Shown here: in pieces, positions 1 through 11,008 of the stretch
Position numbering within the stretch: position 1 is the first letter of the stretch
Layout of the letters: every line of letters begins with the position of its first letter
Assembly (NCBI GenBank): GCA_013815485.1
Contig: JACDGB010000026.1
Span: 1-11,008, forward strand
Reading direction: 5' to 3'
DNA: 11,008 nucleotides
Origin: Rubrobacter sp.
Lineage (GTDB): Bacteria; Actinomycetota; Rubrobacteria; Rubrobacterales; Rubrobacteraceae
Program-made: the position numbers and the translations under genes
Notes under the pieces: model-generated
What the model saw: only the letters and a program-made list of their open reading frames with translations
The model's database searches: none
What the model was told of the DNA's origin: nothing

Positions 1-734
<734 letters not shown>

Positions 735-5587: not shown

Positions 5588-6147
5588 TGAAGCTGTCGGC
5601 CAAAGCCATGAGACTCGAAGGCGATCGGGTGGAGCTTCGGCGCCACGTCAGCAGGAACTACCCGCTCTACGGCGAATGGTACGAGGACCCGGAGGTCTGG
5701 CGACTGACGAGTTGGGCATCGGCGCCCCTCGGCGTGAAGGCGGTCCAGCGGCTCTTCGAGGAGCGCGAGATGTCAAGGACCGACGACTCGTTCGCCATCT
5801 TCCGAAAGGGCGAGCGCGACCCAATCGGCATAATCAGCCTGATAAACCTCAGCGAGGCGCACGCCTCGGCGGATCTATCAATCATCGTGGGCCGCCCCGA
5901 GGACCGGGACAAAGGCTACGGCGCAGAGGCCATCGAGGCTGTGCTCGGGTACGGCTTCGAGAAACTGAAGCTGCACCGCATTGGCCTGAGCGTCTTCGAT
6001 TTCAATGGGATTGCGATATCTGCCTACGAGAAGCTCGGCTTCCGCGAAGAGGGGCGGATGAGGCAGGCGATCAAACGCGACCACGCCTTTCATGACGCGA
6101 TCCTCATGAGCATCCTGAGTTCCGAATGGCAGAGTCGCCGGGGCTAA
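5587..6147 (+). CDS. GNAT N-acetyltransferase (RimJ/RimL-like)
   Basis: This 186-residue acetyltransferase of the GNAT fold transfers acetyl from acetyl-CoA to an amine; the substrate is not evident. The acetyl-CoA pyrophosphate-binding loop is visible as RPEDRDKGYGAEA (103-115, R..G.G pattern). It is followed by GFEKLKLHRIGLSVFDFN (123-140) and the C-terminal SAYEKLGFREEGRMRQAI (145-162), both typical of the RimJ/RimL branch that includes ribosomal-protein and antibiotic acetyltransferases. ATG 5587 is preferred over the internal ATG at 5608 because of the -10 box spacing. The TAA stop overlaps the pheT stop on the other strand. A peptide or small-molecule target is equally possible. Confidence 0.9.
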   Translation: MKLSAKAMRLEGDRVELRRHVSRNYPLYGEWYEDPEVWRLTSWASAPLGVKAVQRLFEEREMSRTDDSFAIFRKGERDPIGIISLINLSEAHASADLSIIVGRPEDRDKGYGAEAIEAVLGYGFEKLKLHRIGLSVFDFNGIAISAYEKLGFREEGRMRQAIKRDHAFHDAILMSILSSEWQSRRG

Positions 6148-8600
6148 CCGCTCCGCACTTCCGCGCCGAACGCCTCCCTTAGCCGCTCCGCGATGCGGCC
6201 CAACTCGGCGTTCACGACCTCGTCGGTGAGCGTCTCCTCGCCTCGCAATGCGAAGCGCAGCGCGACGCTCTTCTTGCCTTCGGGGACCTGACTTCCCTCA
6301 TAAACATCGAAGACGCGCGCCCCAACGAGCACCGGGCTCCCGAGCGCGCGGACAGTCGCCAGCATGTCGCCCGCGGGCACCGCGTTATCCACGACCACAG
6401 CCAGGTCCCGGCTCACGGCTGGCACGTTGGTGAACGGCTCGAAGCGCGGCGCGGTGTCCGGCTCGCAGAAAGCGAGGTCCAACTCGAAGGCAGTCGGTGA
6501 GGATGAGAGATCGAACTTCTCAGCCACATCGGGATCCAACTCACCGACCCACCCGGCCACCGCGTCCCCCACGTACACGACAGCCGAGCGTCCGGGATGG
6601 AGGAATGGCTTCACTCCCGGCGCGAACGATGCTCCGGGTATCAACCTCTCCACGATGCCCTTCGCCTCGAAGAAACCGGCGCGCCGCTCCGGGGCGTTCC
6701 ATGCGGCGGCGCGTATCGTGCCAGCGAGCACGCCCCCGACCCTCGATATTTCCTCGACGCCCATGAGGGAGGCTGCGTTCGGTTCCACTTCGGGACCGAG
6801 ACGGTCCATCTCGCCGGTGAAGCGGAAGTGGATGGCGGCCTCTCGCAAACCCTCGGGGGGCGGGGACGCCTCGAAGACGCGCCCGACCTCGAAGATGGCG
6901 CCGCCCTCGACCCCGAACGCCTCGTTGCGGGCCGCGGCGTCGAGCAGACTGGGCAGCAAGGTCGAGCGCATCTCCCTCGCCTGCGCGCTCAGCGGGTTGG
7001 CAAGCCGTGGAGGCTCGTGGCCGTCATCTAGGCCGAGGTCTTTGAGCCACCGATCCGGACCAAACGGATACGTGACGGCTTCGGCGAGCCCGATATCAGC
7101 GAGCAGACGCCGCACGGCGCGAACCTTCTGCTGCGCGGACGTAAGGCCGCCGGGGAGCGAGGTTTTCGGCAACTCCTCCGGCACGCGGTCGAGCCCATTG
7201 AGTCGCCCGACCTCCTCGATCAGATCCACCTCCCGCCACAGATCCCGCCGGAAAGTCGGAACGATGGCTGAAAGCCGCCCGCCTTCGACACTGACCTCAC
7301 ATCCCAGTGATTCGAGACGTTCCGCAGCTTCATCTTCCTCGACCGGGACGCCGAGCAGCAGTTCGGCGCGTTCGATCCGCATGGGAACTTCCCACGACCG
7401 CACCGGCTCAGGGTAGTGGCTGAGGGTGCCGGCGGCGGCTTCGCCTCCGGGGTTTCGGGTTAAAAGCTCCGTCACGCGCCGCATCGCGTAGTCCACCATA
7501 TTCGGGTCGAGGCCGCGCTCGTAGCGGCCCGAGGCGTCGGTGCGAAGTCCGAGCTTCTGAGAGGTCTTGAGGATGTTTCGGCCCTCGAAGTTGGCGACTT
7601 CGATCAGGACGTCAGTCGTCTCCTCCCCCACCTCGGCGTCCTCCGCGCCCATCACCCCGGCGATGACGAGACCGCGCTCCTCGTCGGAGATCACGAGCAT
7701 CTCCGGGCTGAGATCCCTCGTCGAGCCGTCGAGCAGCGTGATCCTCTCGTCAGGACGGCCCCGCCGGACGACGATGCCACCACGCACCTTCTCCGCGTCG
7801 AAGGCGTGGATGGGCTGTCCGGTCTCCAGCATGACGTAGTTGGTCGCGTCCACAACGGCGTTTATGGACCGCATTCCGGCAGAGAAGATTCGACGCCGCA
7901 TCGCCAGCGGCGCACGTTTTCCGGGCACGACGTTCGAGACGCGGCGCAGGTCGTAGCGCGAACACAGATCCTCAGCCTCAACGCGCAAACCATACTCATC
8001 GGTCGGTGCTCCGCCCGTCTCGAACGAGGGTTCGGGGATGCGGAAGTCCGTGCGCAGGATGGCGGCCAGTTCGCGAGCGATCCCGATCATGCCCCACAGG
8101 TCCGGGCGATTCGGGTTCACGTCCAACTCCAGCACGGTCTCGCCGACAGGGAAGTAATCCAAGACCGGACATCCGACCTCATGCGATTCATCGAGGAGCA
8201 GGATGCCGCCGTGGTCGTTCGAGACGCCGAGTTCGCGCTCGCTCATCATCATACCGTTGGATTCGAGGCCGCGCAGCTTCGCCTTTTTCAGCTTCGTCCC
8301 GTCGTCCATGACGCTGCCGGGAAGGACGACCGGGACACGCGCTCCGGGGTACGGGTTCGGGGCTCCGGCCACGATCTGGACTTCTCTCCCGCCGAGGTCC
8401 ACTTTCGCCACGAAGAGGCGGTCGGCGTTGGGATGCTGCCCGAACTCGACGACCTCGCCCACGACGACCTCGCCGTCGAGCACGCCGAGCCGATGGACGC
8501 CATCCACCTCTTGGCTGTGCAAGGAAATAGCCTCGACCAGTTCGTCCACGGAGAGATCGAAGTCCACGTACTCTCGGAGCCAACTCAACGGAACGCGCAA
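6144..8600 (-). CDS. pheT: Phenylalanyl-tRNA synthetase beta subunit
   Basis: This is the large subunit of the alpha2beta2 PheRS, which binds tRNA-Phe and edits mischarged Tyr-tRNA. The 818-residue length is normal for bacteria. Visible in order are the N-terminal MRVPLSWLREYVD, a tRNA-binding OB fold (about 43-150, HPNADRLFVAKVDLGG), the B3/B4 editing module (about 210-385, including NAVVDATNYVMLETGQPIHAFD), B5 (about 404-472), the inactive synthetase-like core (about 480-690) and the C-terminal ferredoxin-like anticodon-binding domain (about 722-815, FPAVSRDLAVVVD-like VPAVSRDLAVVVD). The start is TTG at 8600; AGAAAGG (complement of 8608-8614) gives a well-spaced ribosome-binding site, 7 nt upstream. 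It starts 21 bp after the pheS stop. No terminator follows; the stop overlaps that of the GNAT gene. Confidence 0.97.
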   Translation of the reverse strand: MRVPLSWLREYVDFDLSVDELVEAISLHSQEVDGVHRLGVLDGEVVVGEVVEFGQHPNADRLFVAKVDLGGREVQIVAGAPNPYPGARVPVVLPGSVMDDGTKLKKAKLRGLESNGMMMSERELGVSNDHGGILLLDESHEVGCPVLDYFPVGETVLELDVNPNRPDLWGMIGIARELAAILRTDFRIPEPSFETGGAPTDEYGLRVEAEDLCSRYDLRRVSNVVPGKRAPLAMRRRIFSAGMRSINAVVDATNYVMLETGQPIHAFDAEKVRGGIVVRRGRPDERITLLDGSTRDLSPEMLVISDEERGLVIAGVMGAEDAEVGEETTDVLIEVANFEGRNILKTSQKLGLRTDASGRYERGLDPNMVDYAMRRVTELLTRNPGGEAAAGTLSHYPEPVRSWEVPMRIERAELLLGVPVEEDEAAERLESLGCEVSVEGGRLSAIVPTFRRDLWREVDLIEEVGRLNGLDRVPEELPKTSLPGGLTSAQQKVRAVRRLLADIGLAEAVTYPFGPDRWLKDLGLDDGHEPPRLANPLSAQAREMRSTLLPSLLDAAARNEAFGVEGGAIFEVGRVFEASPPPEGLREAAIHFRFTGEMDRLGPEVEPNAASLMGVEEISRVGGVLAGTIRAAAWNAPERRAGFFEAKGIVERLIPGASFAPGVKPFLHPGRSAVVYVGDAVAGWVGELDPDVAEKFDLSSSPTAFELDLAFCEPDTAPRFEPFTNVPAVSRDLAVVVDNAVPAGDMLATVRALGSPVLVGARVFDVYEGSQVPEGKKSVALRFALRGEETLTDEVVNAELGRIAERLREAFGAEVRSG

Positions 8601-8621: not shown

Positions 8622-9938
8622 CTAAAACTGTCGGAGGAAGCGGAGGTCGCCCTCGAAGAAGAGCCGGAGGTCCGCCACGCCGTACTTCGCCATCGCCATC
8701 CGGTCTGGACCCATTCCAAATGCGAAGCCGGTGTACTCCTCCGGGTCGTAGCCGACTTCTTCGAGGACAGCCGGGTCCACCATTCCGGCGCCGAGCATCT
8801 CCAGCCAGCCGGCACCCTTGCAGACCTTGCACTTCGGGTCCGATCCGCCGCACACGAAGCAGCTCACATCCAACTCCACGCTCGGCTCGGTGAACTGGAA
8901 GTAGCTCGGCCTGAGCCTCACCTTCACGTCCTCGCCGAATACATGCCGCGCCATCGCCGCCAGCGTTCCCTTCAGATGCGAGAGCGTGATCCCACGGTCC
9001 ACCGCGAGACCTTCGATCTGGTTGAACATCGGCGTGTGCGTCGGGTCTGAGTCGCGCCGGTACGTCCGCCCCGGACACACCACGTAAACCGGCGGCTCCT
9101 GCGAGAGCATCGTCCGGATTTGGACCGGTGAAGTGTGAGTCCGCAACACCAGCCCTTCATCCAGGAAGAACGTATCCTGCATGGTGCGCGCCGGGTGCCC
9201 CGGCGGGATATTGAGCGCCGTGAAGTTGTAGTAGTCGGTCTCCACCTCTGGACCTTCCGCGACCCGGTACCCGAGCCCCACGAAGAAGTCCACGACCTCG
9301 TCCACGACTCGCATGGAGGGATGGAGGCTACCCTTCGGATACGGCACGCCGGGCAGGGTCACATCCACCGCCTCGGCACGAAGCCGCGCCTCACGCTCGA
9401 TAAAAGCGAGTTCTTCCGCCCGAACCTTTATGGCGTCTTCTAGGTCGCGAGAAGCTCGGTTTGCCACTCCGCCCACTTCGGGACGTGCTTCAACTGGCAA
9501 CTCCCGAACGAGCTTTTTTACTTCTGTGAGTTGAGAGGAACGTCCAAGATACTCGATCCGTAGTCGCTCTAGCTCCGCCAAGTTCTTAGCAGCTCTGATG
9601 GCGGCCTGTGCTTGTTCCGTGAACCTTGATGCCTCGGCGACGACTTGCTCCCGGTCAACGCGGCTGGCAGCCTCAGCAGCCCTGCGCGCCTGTTCAGCGA
9701 ACTTGGATGCGTCGAGGTGCTTGGCGGCCTCCGCAGCCCTGCGCGCCCGTTCAGCGAACTTGGATACGTCGAGGTGCTTGGCGGCCTCCGCAGCCCTGCG
9801 CGCCTGTTCAGCGAACTTGGATGCGTCGAGGTGCTTGGCGGCCTCCGCAGCCCTGCGCGCCTGTTCAGCGAACTTAGATGCGTCAGCAAGTCTAGCCGCC
9901 TCACGAGCAAACCTTGCCATCTGACTAGGATCGTACAT
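8622..9938 (-). CDS. pheS: Phenylalanyl-tRNA synthetase alpha subunit, expanded arm
   Basis: This catalytic subunit of PheRS charges tRNA-Phe with phenylalanine. At 438 residues it is about 100 longer than usual (327-344). The canonical part starts near residue 100: the tail of the first arm helix and LAELERLRIEYLGR (120-133), class II motif 2 region GRTYRRDSDPTHTPMFNQIEG (290-310), a Cys4 zinc-type cluster (Cys360, 363, 370, 373), GWLEMLGAGMVDP (377-389) and motif 3 GFAFGMGPDRMAMAKYG (404-420). Catalytic features look intact. Residues 1-101 are an alanine-rich helical extension containing four 19-residue repeats. Starts in frame are ATG 9938 and ATG 9920 only; no ATG, GTG or TTG occurs again before about residue 120, so the extension should be translated. 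The start lies 9 bp after the methyltransferase stop, without a clear ribosome-binding site. Confidence 0.96.
   Translation of the reverse strand: MYDPSQMARFAREAARLADASKFAEQARRAAEAAKHLDASKFAEQARRAAEAAKHLDVSKFAERARRAAEAAKHLDASKFAEQARRAAEAASRVDREQVVAEASRFTEQAQAAIRAAKNLAELERLRIEYLGRSSQLTEVKKLVRELPVEARPEVGGVANRASRDLEDAIKVRAEELAFIEREARLRAEAVDVTLPGVPYPKGSLHPSMRVVDEVVDFFVGLGYRVAEGPEVETDYYNFTALNIPPGHPARTMQDTFFLDEGLVLRTHTSPVQIRTMLSQEPPVYVVCPGRTYRRDSDPTHTPMFNQIEGLAVDRGITLSHLKGTLAAMARHVFGEDVKVRLRPSYFQFTEPSVELDVSCFVCGGSDPKCKVCKGAGWLEMLGAGMVDPAVLEEVGYDPEEYTGFAFGMGPDRMAMAKYGVADLRLFFEGDLRFLRQF
9671..9898 (-). repeat. 57 bp tandem repeat, four copies, within pheS
   Basis: Copies lie at 9671-9727, 9728-9784, 9785-9841 and 9842-9898. 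The first three differ from one another at only one to three bases. The fourth, which encodes the most N-terminal unit, matches for about 43 bases and then diverges. Each encodes 19 residues; the protein unit is DASKFAEQARRAAEAAKHL (residues 19-37, 38-56, 57-75 with A-to-V and Q-to-R changes, 76-94 ending SRV). A degenerate relative, EASRFTEQAQAAIRAAKNL (102-120), is the native first helix of the PheS arm, and residues 7-18 look like another decayed partial copy. Confidence 0.95.
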
Positions 9939-9947
9939 CAGTGGCGG

Positions 9948-10559
9948 CTATGGTAGCACACGCATATACGCCTCGTAGAGCAGAATTGAGGCCGCGACCG
10001 CCGCGTTCAACGAGGCCGCCTGAGATGGTATCGTCACCACCCCATCGCACGCTGAGACCACTCCCTCCGGCAACCCGGAACCCTCTGCCCCGACCACCAG
10101 AACGAACTTCCCATCGGGCAGGGATTTCGCTGGCTCTCCCGCCTCCGGCACGGCGGCGATGGTCGTGAAACCGTCGGCGGAGGCTTCTTCCAGAAACCCA
10201 GCGGTCTCGATCTCCCGCGCAATCGGAGCGTGGAAGATGGAGCCCATCGTGGCTCGCACGGTCTTGGGATTGTACAGATCGGCGCTACGGCGGGAGAGCG
10301 CGACTCCTGCCCCGAAAGCATGGGCCGCTCGAATGATAGTGCCCACGTTGCCAGGGTCCTGGAGGCCGTGGAGCGCGACGATCCGGTCTCGGCTCCGCAG
10401 AAGTTCGGCGGCCCCCACGTCCAGGAAAGGGAAGACCCCCACCGGCCCCGTCGGGGTGGTGAGGGTCGAGATTTTTCGCACGTCTTCCGTTTCGATGAAG
10501 AGATAACGCGGCGGCTCGGAAGACTCCGAGACCAGATCCTCGCCCTCGGCCAGAAACAA
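9948..10559 (-). CDS. SpoU/TrmH-family RNA 2'-O-methyltransferase
   Basis: This SPOUT-class enzyme transfers methyl from S-adenosylmethionine to a ribose 2'-OH in rRNA or tRNA. The three SpoU motifs are clear: LQDPGNVGTIIRAAHAFGAG (66-85, with the conserved Asn and Arg), VVGAEGSGLP (155-164), and IPSQAASLNAAVAASILLYEA (177-197), which form the trefoil-knot SAM site. YNPKTVRATMGSIFH (96-110) is also typical. The coordinates use TTG 10559, the first ordinary start codon. However, the same frame upstream encodes SPKRAAQLARKKHREAERL, which matches the usual N-terminal substrate-binding segment of this family, so the true start is probably nearer 10610-10649. The only candidate there is a non-standard codon such as CTG at 10649. 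It lies between rplT and pheS; the exact RNA target is unknown. Confidence 0.9.
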   Translation of the reverse strand: MFLAEGEDLVSESSEPPRYLFIETEDVRKISTLTTPTGPVGVFPFLDVGAAELLRSRDRIVALHGLQDPGNVGTIIRAAHAFGAGVALSRRSADLYNPKTVRATMGSIFHAPIAREIETAGFLEEASADGFTTIAAVPEAGEPAKSLPDGKFVLVVGAEGSGLPEGVVSACDGVVTIPSQAASLNAAVAASILLYEAYMRVLP

Positions 10560-10629: not shown

Positions 10630-11008
10630 CTAGCTCTCTTCGTCGCCAGAGGCTTTCTCTACATCCGATTCCTCGGCCTTGCGCTCCGCAGCATCCGTGT
10701 CATCCACCGAAGATGTATTCTCAGCGGACGCTTCAGCCTCGGTAGAAGCCTCAGCCTCTACGAGGGCCCCCGTAGCTTGCATCGGCGCGGGCTCTTGCTT
10801 GCGCGGCTCCTCCGGCTTGCGTTCGACTTCGATGCGCCGCTGGACGGGGTCGCCGTTCAGGGCGTTCTGAGCTTGGGCGACGATCGCGCCGAATGCGTCC
10901 GGTTCGGTCGCGGCGAGGTCGGCGAGGATCTTGCGATCCAGGTCTATCTCGGCGAGCTTCAGGCCGTGGATGAGTTGCGAGTAGGAGAGTCCATGTTCGC
11001 GGGCGCCA
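10630..11008 (-). CDS. rplT: Ribosomal protein L20, C-terminal part with acidic tail
   Basis: This is a 50S subunit protein needed for early large-subunit assembly; the 5' part of the gene lies beyond the right edge. The 125 residues in the window open with [20 protein letters not shown] (3-22) and [21 protein letters not shown] (23-43), the conserved L20 C-terminal domain. Ordinary L20 ends about ten residues later. Here about 73 residues follow: a charged linker ([19 protein letters not shown]) and then a Glu/Ala/Ser-rich, strongly acidic tail ending DEES before TAG at 10630-10632. The tail is low-complexity and probably disordered. Its frame has no stop and normal codon use, so it appears to be truly coded. 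It is likely first in this window's rplT-methyltransferase-pheS-pheT operon, with infC and rpmI expected to the right. Confidence 0.92.

Follow-up and report, generated by a model that had tools for sequence, protein, structure and literature searches.

The alpha subunit of phenylalanine-tRNA ligase (PheS) encoded in the window, as we call the whole stretch of 11,008 nucleotides analysed here, carries an N-terminal extension of four tandem 19-residue units. We tentatively interpret this extension as a lineage-restricted, jointed helical appendage, held as helices by selection while its units turn over, and working through protein contacts, most likely by packing on the PheRS tetramer. Few enzymes are as conserved as the synthetases, and the length of bacterial PheS varies little. 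Searches of the open-licence literature listed no report of such a PheS extension.

The repeat array of PheS

The window belongs to a Rubrobacter-like metagenome assembly (G000; 2.52 Mb, 511 contigs, 75% complete), and the named records related to it are from Rubrobacter and Rubrobacteraceae. Its minus strand carries the genes of bL20, a SpoU methyltransferase, PheS and PheT, with the following features.

6144..8600, minus strand: pheT, beta subunit, with the five Pfam domains of bacterial PheT (Pfam, TIGR00472)
8622..9938, minus strand: pheS, phenylalanine--tRNA ligase alpha subunit with N-terminal extension, 438 aa (ORF, translation, TIGR00468, PF01409/PF02912)
8625..9368, minus strand: PheS catalytic core, residues 191-438 (Pfam PF01409)
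9381..9587, minus strand: PheS arm domain, residues 118-186 (Pfam PF02912)
9579..9635, minus strand: first arm helix, residues 102-120, EASRFTEQAQAAIRAAKNL, akin to the unit by sequence (11/19 aa, 33/57 nt)
9657..9713, minus strand: unit 4, DASKFAEQARRAAEAASRV (TRF and unit alignment)
9714..9770, minus strand: unit 3, DVSKFAERARRAAEAAKHL (TRF and unit alignment)
9771..9827, minus strand: unit 2, DASKFAEQARRAAEAAKHL, one base off unit 1 (TRF and unit alignment)
9828..9884, minus strand: unit 1, DASKFAEQARRAAEAAKHL (TRF and unit alignment)
9885..9938, minus strand: PheS leader, residues 1-18 (unit likeness; dN/dS against G001 0.07)
9936..9938, minus strand: ATG start codon of pheS, 9 nt past the stop codon of the upstream SpoU methyltransferase gene
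9948..10559, minus strand: SpoU-family RNA methyltransferase, the upstream neighbour of pheS (profile matches)

The TIGR00468 score (319 bits, cut-off 237.45) identifies the protein as a bacterial PheS; its class II core and its arm score 330 bits (PF01409) and 53.4 bits (PF02912), respectively, and pheT, with which it pairs downstream, reaches 685 bits with TIGR00472. It is the single PheS match in a search of G000 (assembly about 75% complete). The arm domain, the core, the pheT neighbour and the tRNA-contacting part are those of bacterial PheS (PF02912, TIGR00468); unlike ordinary bacterial PheS, it has 96 extra residues of tandem, predicted helical units before the arm, which are not in 28 ordinary relatives.

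The front of PheS is made of the leader, four 19-residue (57 bp) units that span residues 19-94, and a short linker. TRF detected one strong array in the window (9665-9884, period 57, 3.9 copies, 95% matches) with a score of 405, compared with a best array score of 88 in 100 dinucleotide shuffles of the window. Units 1-3 are alike in 54-56 of 57 bases and unit 4 agrees with the others in 48-50 of 57, in keeping with the original prediction of four 19-residue units, three of them near-identical in DNA. Its estimate of about 100 extra N-terminal residues was equally sound: ordinary PheS of the family mostly has 342 aa, so the surplus amounts to 96 residues. The array that it placed at 9671-9898 is the same one, but those limits lie 14 bp off the codon register, the units spanning 9657-9884. 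The leader itself resembles the unit (8 of 16 identical over residues 3-18; 13 of 5000 shuffles as good).

A repeat-prone genome was rejected as the source of the array, since 20 other G000 contigs (95,009 bases) gave 10 TRF rows with a best score of only 138 against 405, and 20 contigs of G028, a further extended genome, gave 2 rows in 112,166 bases. Acquisition from another gene was also rejected, the extension query having found PheS alone in G000 (assembly incomplete). A viral scan with the repeat DNA returned no match. A Pfam search at E up to 5 gave no family above its cut-off in the extensions of P0001, P0006, P0021 and P0037, and PF00458, which we take to be the WHEP-TRS family, was not among the matches.

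A stop codon lies 6-9 nt ahead of the PheS ATG in 19 of the 20 Rubrobacteraceae loci compared, extended and ordinary ones together (the exception being L044); the native pheS start was therefore kept, with the extension lying between start and arm. The in-frame ATG, GTG and TTG codons up to residue 120 are ATG 1, ATG 7 and TTG 120 only, which bears out the expectation that no ordinary start occurs between residue 7 and about residue 120 and that initiation nearby could not bypass the repeats. Neither ATG 1 nor ATG 7 has a good Shine-Dalgarno match ahead of it (best 3/6). Judged from the sequence, it is very likely that the extension is translated, and a misread pheS start codon is unlikely.

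Two further observations concern the neighbourhood. A 16S rRNA gene truncated by the contig start occupies positions 1-734 (minus strand) and adjoins tyrS. In many Rubrobacteraceae, bL20, whose gene lies in the same cluster as pheS, has a tail at its C-terminus that contains between one and three E3-binding (PSBD-like) motifs: the L038 tail (1430-1672) has two PF02817 matches (E 4.9e-19), and by eye, among 18 loci, three motifs were seen in L063, two in eight loci, one in two and none in six. The C-terminal part of bL20 in the window (10630-11008, minus strand) retains just a decayed tail remnant with no Pfam match; the tail is present beside ordinary pheS too.

Origin, distribution and turnover of the units

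Compared with residues 102-120, the window unit has a BLOSUM62 score of 53, a value reached by 0 of 20,000 helix shuffles; the proposed likeness to the first helix of the arm in the same enzyme (11 of 19 identical) was thus confirmed, and unit and helix are akin, by sequence, in the window lineage. The unit scores 46 with the arm helix of G001, the nearest extended species, 23 with that of G028, and 5-17 with those of ordinary family relatives. The first arm helix of the ordinary relatives being unlike the window unit, copying between unit and helix may have run either way. The G028-type unit, of 20 residues and mostly with an NP start, shows no likeness to its own arm helix beyond chance (for two units compared, 618 and 979 of 5000 shuffles scored as high). 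A home-grown origin, as originally suggested, therefore stands for the window type insofar as unit and helix are akin; it fails for the 20-residue type, and the copying direction that it implied is not upheld by the ordinary helices.

A query with the window extension retrieved 4 proteins at E 0.001 among 7,994 scored, two of them PheS and two unrelated alanine-rich proteins. The latter, P0004 (caspase-like) and P0005, have alanine-rich tandem helix repeats of like composition (AEQARKAEE), and differ from the PheS extension in being unrelated chains and not synthetases. The G028-extension query found 32 proteins among 7,997 scored, all PheS. P0006 has four 20-residue units, all 28 proteins from P0007 to P0034 have three, P0035 has two, and P0036, a single sequence, has about one and a half. 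A third, degenerate unit type occurs in P0037 (a cluster of 19), which as query finds itself and P0006 only. In tests with 5000 shuffles, none did as well as the match between G028-type and P0037 units, which are clearly akin; 97 and 22 did as well as that between window and G028-type units, whose relationship is weak at best; and 1519 did as well as that between window and P0037 units, which are unrelated by this test. P0032 and P0035, in which identity switches abruptly inside the catalytic part, may be chimeric assemblies; P0035 being possibly chimeric and P0036 a single sequence, both are weak evidence for unit loss. The protein searches, drawn by extension queries, are blind to losses of the extension.

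PheS matches were obtained in 37 of the 39 family genomes searched, with 34 of 36 genomes positive in one search and 3 of 5 in another (none in G004 and G033). The N-terminus was read in 31 of them, 28 ordinary and three extended (G000, G001 and G028); G002, of the same genus, has an ordinary PheS. In the other six (G014, G018, G022, G060, G061 and G062) the window matches begin at residues 89-108, behind the unread N-terminus. The N-terminus alone as query matched six of the 39 genomes, three of these by the ordinary arm alone. L057 and L042, both from MGR_bin332 (G019), hold two different PheS in one bin, which is either a mixed bin or a case of a second copy.

In the phylum, 240 of 246 genomes match an arm model (family included), and the survey covers the 150 matches listed, 130 of them outside the family. 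No window-like extension was found among these 130. In 96 the open frames, of at most 400 aa, leave no room for one, and all 34 longer frames have an in-frame ATG or GTG 14-37 codons ahead of the arm domain, with a best self-match of 0.59 in the upstream frame. On known cases the self-match measure gives 1.00 (window), 0.89 (G001), 0.80 (P0021), 0.55 (P0006) and 0.32 (P0037); since it misses the P0006 and P0037 types, a window-like extension, and not a degenerate one, is excluded in the 34. As far as these surveys reach, the extension is restricted to a small set of uncultured Rubrobacter.

The suggestion of copy-number change was borne out by near-identical proteins that differ in unit number: P0002 (a stored protein of 419 aa, cluster of 19 sequences at 90% identity) equals the window PheS minus exactly one unit, plus one further substitution, and so has three units where the window has four. 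G001 has two units, 98% alike. The unit count across relatives that the original prediction had called for gives 28 ordinary and three extended PheS in the family genomes read and, with the stored P0002 added, arrays of two, three and four units in the window type. Units agree in 48-56 of 57 bases within G000 and in 53 of 57 within G001, as against 40-44 of 57 between the two; since units are more alike within than between species, re-amplification or homogenisation must have occurred after the split of G000 and G001. In G028 the array is no longer visible to TRF. The arrays of the 57-bp type demonstrate, at the level of sequence, that units multiply and turn over within lineages.

Over the leader and two units (56 codons), window and G001 differ by 22.0 synonymous and 16.0 non-synonymous changes, giving a dN/dS of about 0.13, a value from one species pair with dS about 1.0 (near saturation) and from paired units that are not strict orthologues. 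In the leader, 7 synonymous and 3 non-synonymous differences give 0.07; elsewhere dN/dS is 0.22 in the arm and 0.06 in the catalytic part. These counts show that the extension is conserved as protein between the two species, as gauged by codon comparison. Faster evolution of the arm in extended species was considered and found unconvincing, the window-G001 pair ranking 3/24 among comparable pairs.

Trees of the front half of PheS and of PheT conflict despite the adjacency of the two genes (window, L038, L039 and L049). A first PheS tree with one distant outgroup joined the window and G001 and set G028 apart. From YLGR on and with phylum outgroups, window, G001 and G028 grouped together (94/92 and 99/93), and with metagenome proteins added, the 12 extended of 40 sequences formed one clade (99/98), in a set that took in the doubtful P0032, P0035 and P0036 and left out nine distant or partial sequences. 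In the catalytic part alone (38 sequences, after removal of six lacking the motif and the same nine) the extended group was not recovered (AU p 0.101), and P0037 fell with six sequences of or near genus g3 (98/98). A quick PheT tree of 31 sequences (seven left out, and two loci lacking a full PheT) placed the window with G001 and G002 at support 100 and rejected the grouping of window, G001 and G028 (p 7.8e-94). The genus grouping is compatible with PheS (p 0.25 in the phylum-outgroup trees, 0.097 in the 40-sequence set), and L039 with g3 was not rejected either (p 0.141 and 0.152, L043 and L044 included). Identity at third positions of the arm is 0.44 between window and G028, compared with 0.27-0.53 in the other six pairs of the window; these positions are saturated and carry no signal on recent recombination with G028.

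The conflict may have arisen because the front half was exchanged, because it descends from an old common ancestor with later losses, or because the arms converged; the sequences are compatible with each. We consider unlikely the furthest-reaching version, in which extension and arm form an exchangeable, copy-number-tuned module that recombination inside pheS carried from one Rubrobacter lineage to another, joining it to different catalytic halves beside the native PheT, while its units were continually re-amplified; if true, the module would be a fast-evolving appendage that adjusts PheRS to its host.

Predicted shape of the extension and the tRNA-binding arm

Taken as a helix, one window unit has a hydrophobic moment of 0.52 at 100 degrees, a value reached by 0.9% of shuffles, and is amphipathic. 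The same holds for the G001 unit (2.3%) and for units 2 and 3 of P0021 (2.9% and 0.5%), but not for unit 1 of P0021 (13%). In an idealised row of four window units the moment falls to 0.06 and the continuous hydrophobic stripe is gone, as expected of a 19-residue period in a straight alpha helix. AlphaFold2 (one chain, 45 sequences, mean pLDDT 77.7, pTM 0.54) modelled helices at 4-16, 21-34, 39-52, 59-72 and 77-91 of the extension, roughly one per unit, at a pLDDT of about 41-69 that leaves their shape unsure, and the arm helices at 96-116, 120-131, 136-144 and 152-188, with pLDDT of 82-93 in blocks 101-180. For P0021, of the 20-residue type, the helices are 3-12, 17-31, 37-50 and 55-84; the last unit continues into the first arm helix, with pLDDT of 84-94 from residue 61. 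Foldseek with the model returned PheS chains at the top, with large rmsd to full-length chains because parts of the model are loosely placed. A PDB sequence search gave no match for the window-type extension and two weak ones for the G028 type (E 0.058 and 0.09).

From YLGR on, the window aligns gap-free to ordinary relatives, this part counting 309 aa in the window and in the other complete family sequences compared, except L030 (310) and L063 (295); the arm has no extra residues at its tip or in the stretch that joins its two helices. The original prediction of an expanded coiled-coil arm did not survive this comparison: the repeats sit ahead of the first arm helix, and the gap-free alignment, the lost hydrophobic periodicity and the model, with breaks between units, all speak against a lengthened coiled coil. 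The structure prediction it had proposed for the N-terminus yielded separate short helices and no continuous coiled coil. We thus describe the extension as a predicted chain of short helices in front of the arm, one per unit.

The PheS arm binds tRNA (PMC3275996, PMC12447630), and in Mycobacterium tuberculosis PheRS its residues Ala45, Gln46 and Asn64 contact the D and T loops (PMC12447630). The residues contacting the tRNA elbow map to the ordinary part of the window PheS and not to the extension. Asn64 corresponds to Asn160 of the window (alignment offset residue 107 to 11, assuming no gap between); the normal arm-tRNA contact looks kept, because Asn160 is nearly invariant in 45 sequences. 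A tRNA-Phe altered to match the extension was looked for in G000 and G001 (that of G028 and G002 was not found whole) and rejected: four genomes with ordinary PheS served for comparison, and of these G007 and G021 have a tRNA-Phe that differs from the G000 one by 1 of 74 bases, while G010 and G011 share theirs exactly with G001. The extension carries a net charge of +5 in the window and +1 in G001; in P0037 the charge is -6, and the G028 type ranges from -5 to -8. With charge running from +5 to -8, a tRNA- or RNA-binding role common to all extension types is unlikely, and the idea that the extension alters tRNA binding loses ground accordingly as a shared role.

Possible roles of the extension

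In the helical-appendage reading, the units, which lie in frame behind the native start codon, would have arisen when a 57-bp stretch of the enzyme's own first arm helix was duplicated in tandem. Each unit would fold into a single short helix that begins with Asp or Asn/Pro, and the hinged chain would hang at the base of the tRNA-binding arm, itself no longer than usual. Selection would hold only helix character, hinge spacing and reading frame. In the weakest step of the proposal, the appendage would make contacts with protein, most likely on the PheRS tetramer, and not with RNA; protein contacts, simplest with PheRS itself, are favoured because charge varies and tRNA-Phe shows no matching change. 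A close rival is that slippage during replication duplicated 57 bp of helix-coding sequence where the N-terminus is exposed and the enzyme tolerates it, selection removing only variants that misfold or aggregate. Such a tolerated passenger is possible if somewhat unlikely: the fast turnover of copy number and sequence, the charge that is not kept, the unchanged tRNA-Phe and the absence of the extension from most of the family fit it almost as well as they fit the appendage. Against it, the dN/dS of the extension, lowest in the leader, is tighter than expected of a useless tail, and the window and 20-residue types both keep helical units of 19-20 residues starting with Asp, Asn or Ser.

Helical appendages dock proteins in other synthetase complexes, and WHEP domains, helix-turn-helix units of about 50 aa, occur in animals and their kin. 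Docking of another protein (another synthetase, EF-Tu, the ribosome or an editing factor) would have parallels in the WHEP-TRS of EPRS, likewise helical repeats in a synthetase whose number varies between taxa (PMC4072531), and in SepCysE, whose paired short N-terminal helices bind the PheRS-like class II synthetase SepRS (PMC5688128). The PheS units differ from WHEP-TRS in being of 19-20 aa, single-helix, bacterial and below Pfam cut-offs, and from the SepCysE helices in sitting on the synthetase itself, not on the partner protein. No conserved surface was seen and the unit types share little sequence, so we give docking little credence. Strengthened contacts of the extension with tRNA-Phe or rRNA would suit the adjoining tRNA-binding arm (PMC3275996, PMC12447630) and the positive charge of the window; the acidic 20-residue type and the tRNA-Phe of G000 and G001 make such RNA binding very improbable. 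That the repeat is misassembled or the start codon wrong is the least probable reading: the extended sequences with a named source are metagenomic and some stored relatives look chimeric (P0032, P0035), but separate assemblies carry the extension (G000, G001, G028 and metagenome proteins), the start codon context is the family's own, and leader differences fall mostly on third codon positions (4, 0 and 7).

The helical appendage, to which we incline, would be a tandem-repeat domain that a single small lineage has, with a copy number that changes although selection seems to act on it. The extended and ordinary PheS form a natural series (0, 2, 3 and 4 units) on one enzyme of how essential proteins gain new domains, and this series may tell whether new domains begin as passengers or as functional parts.
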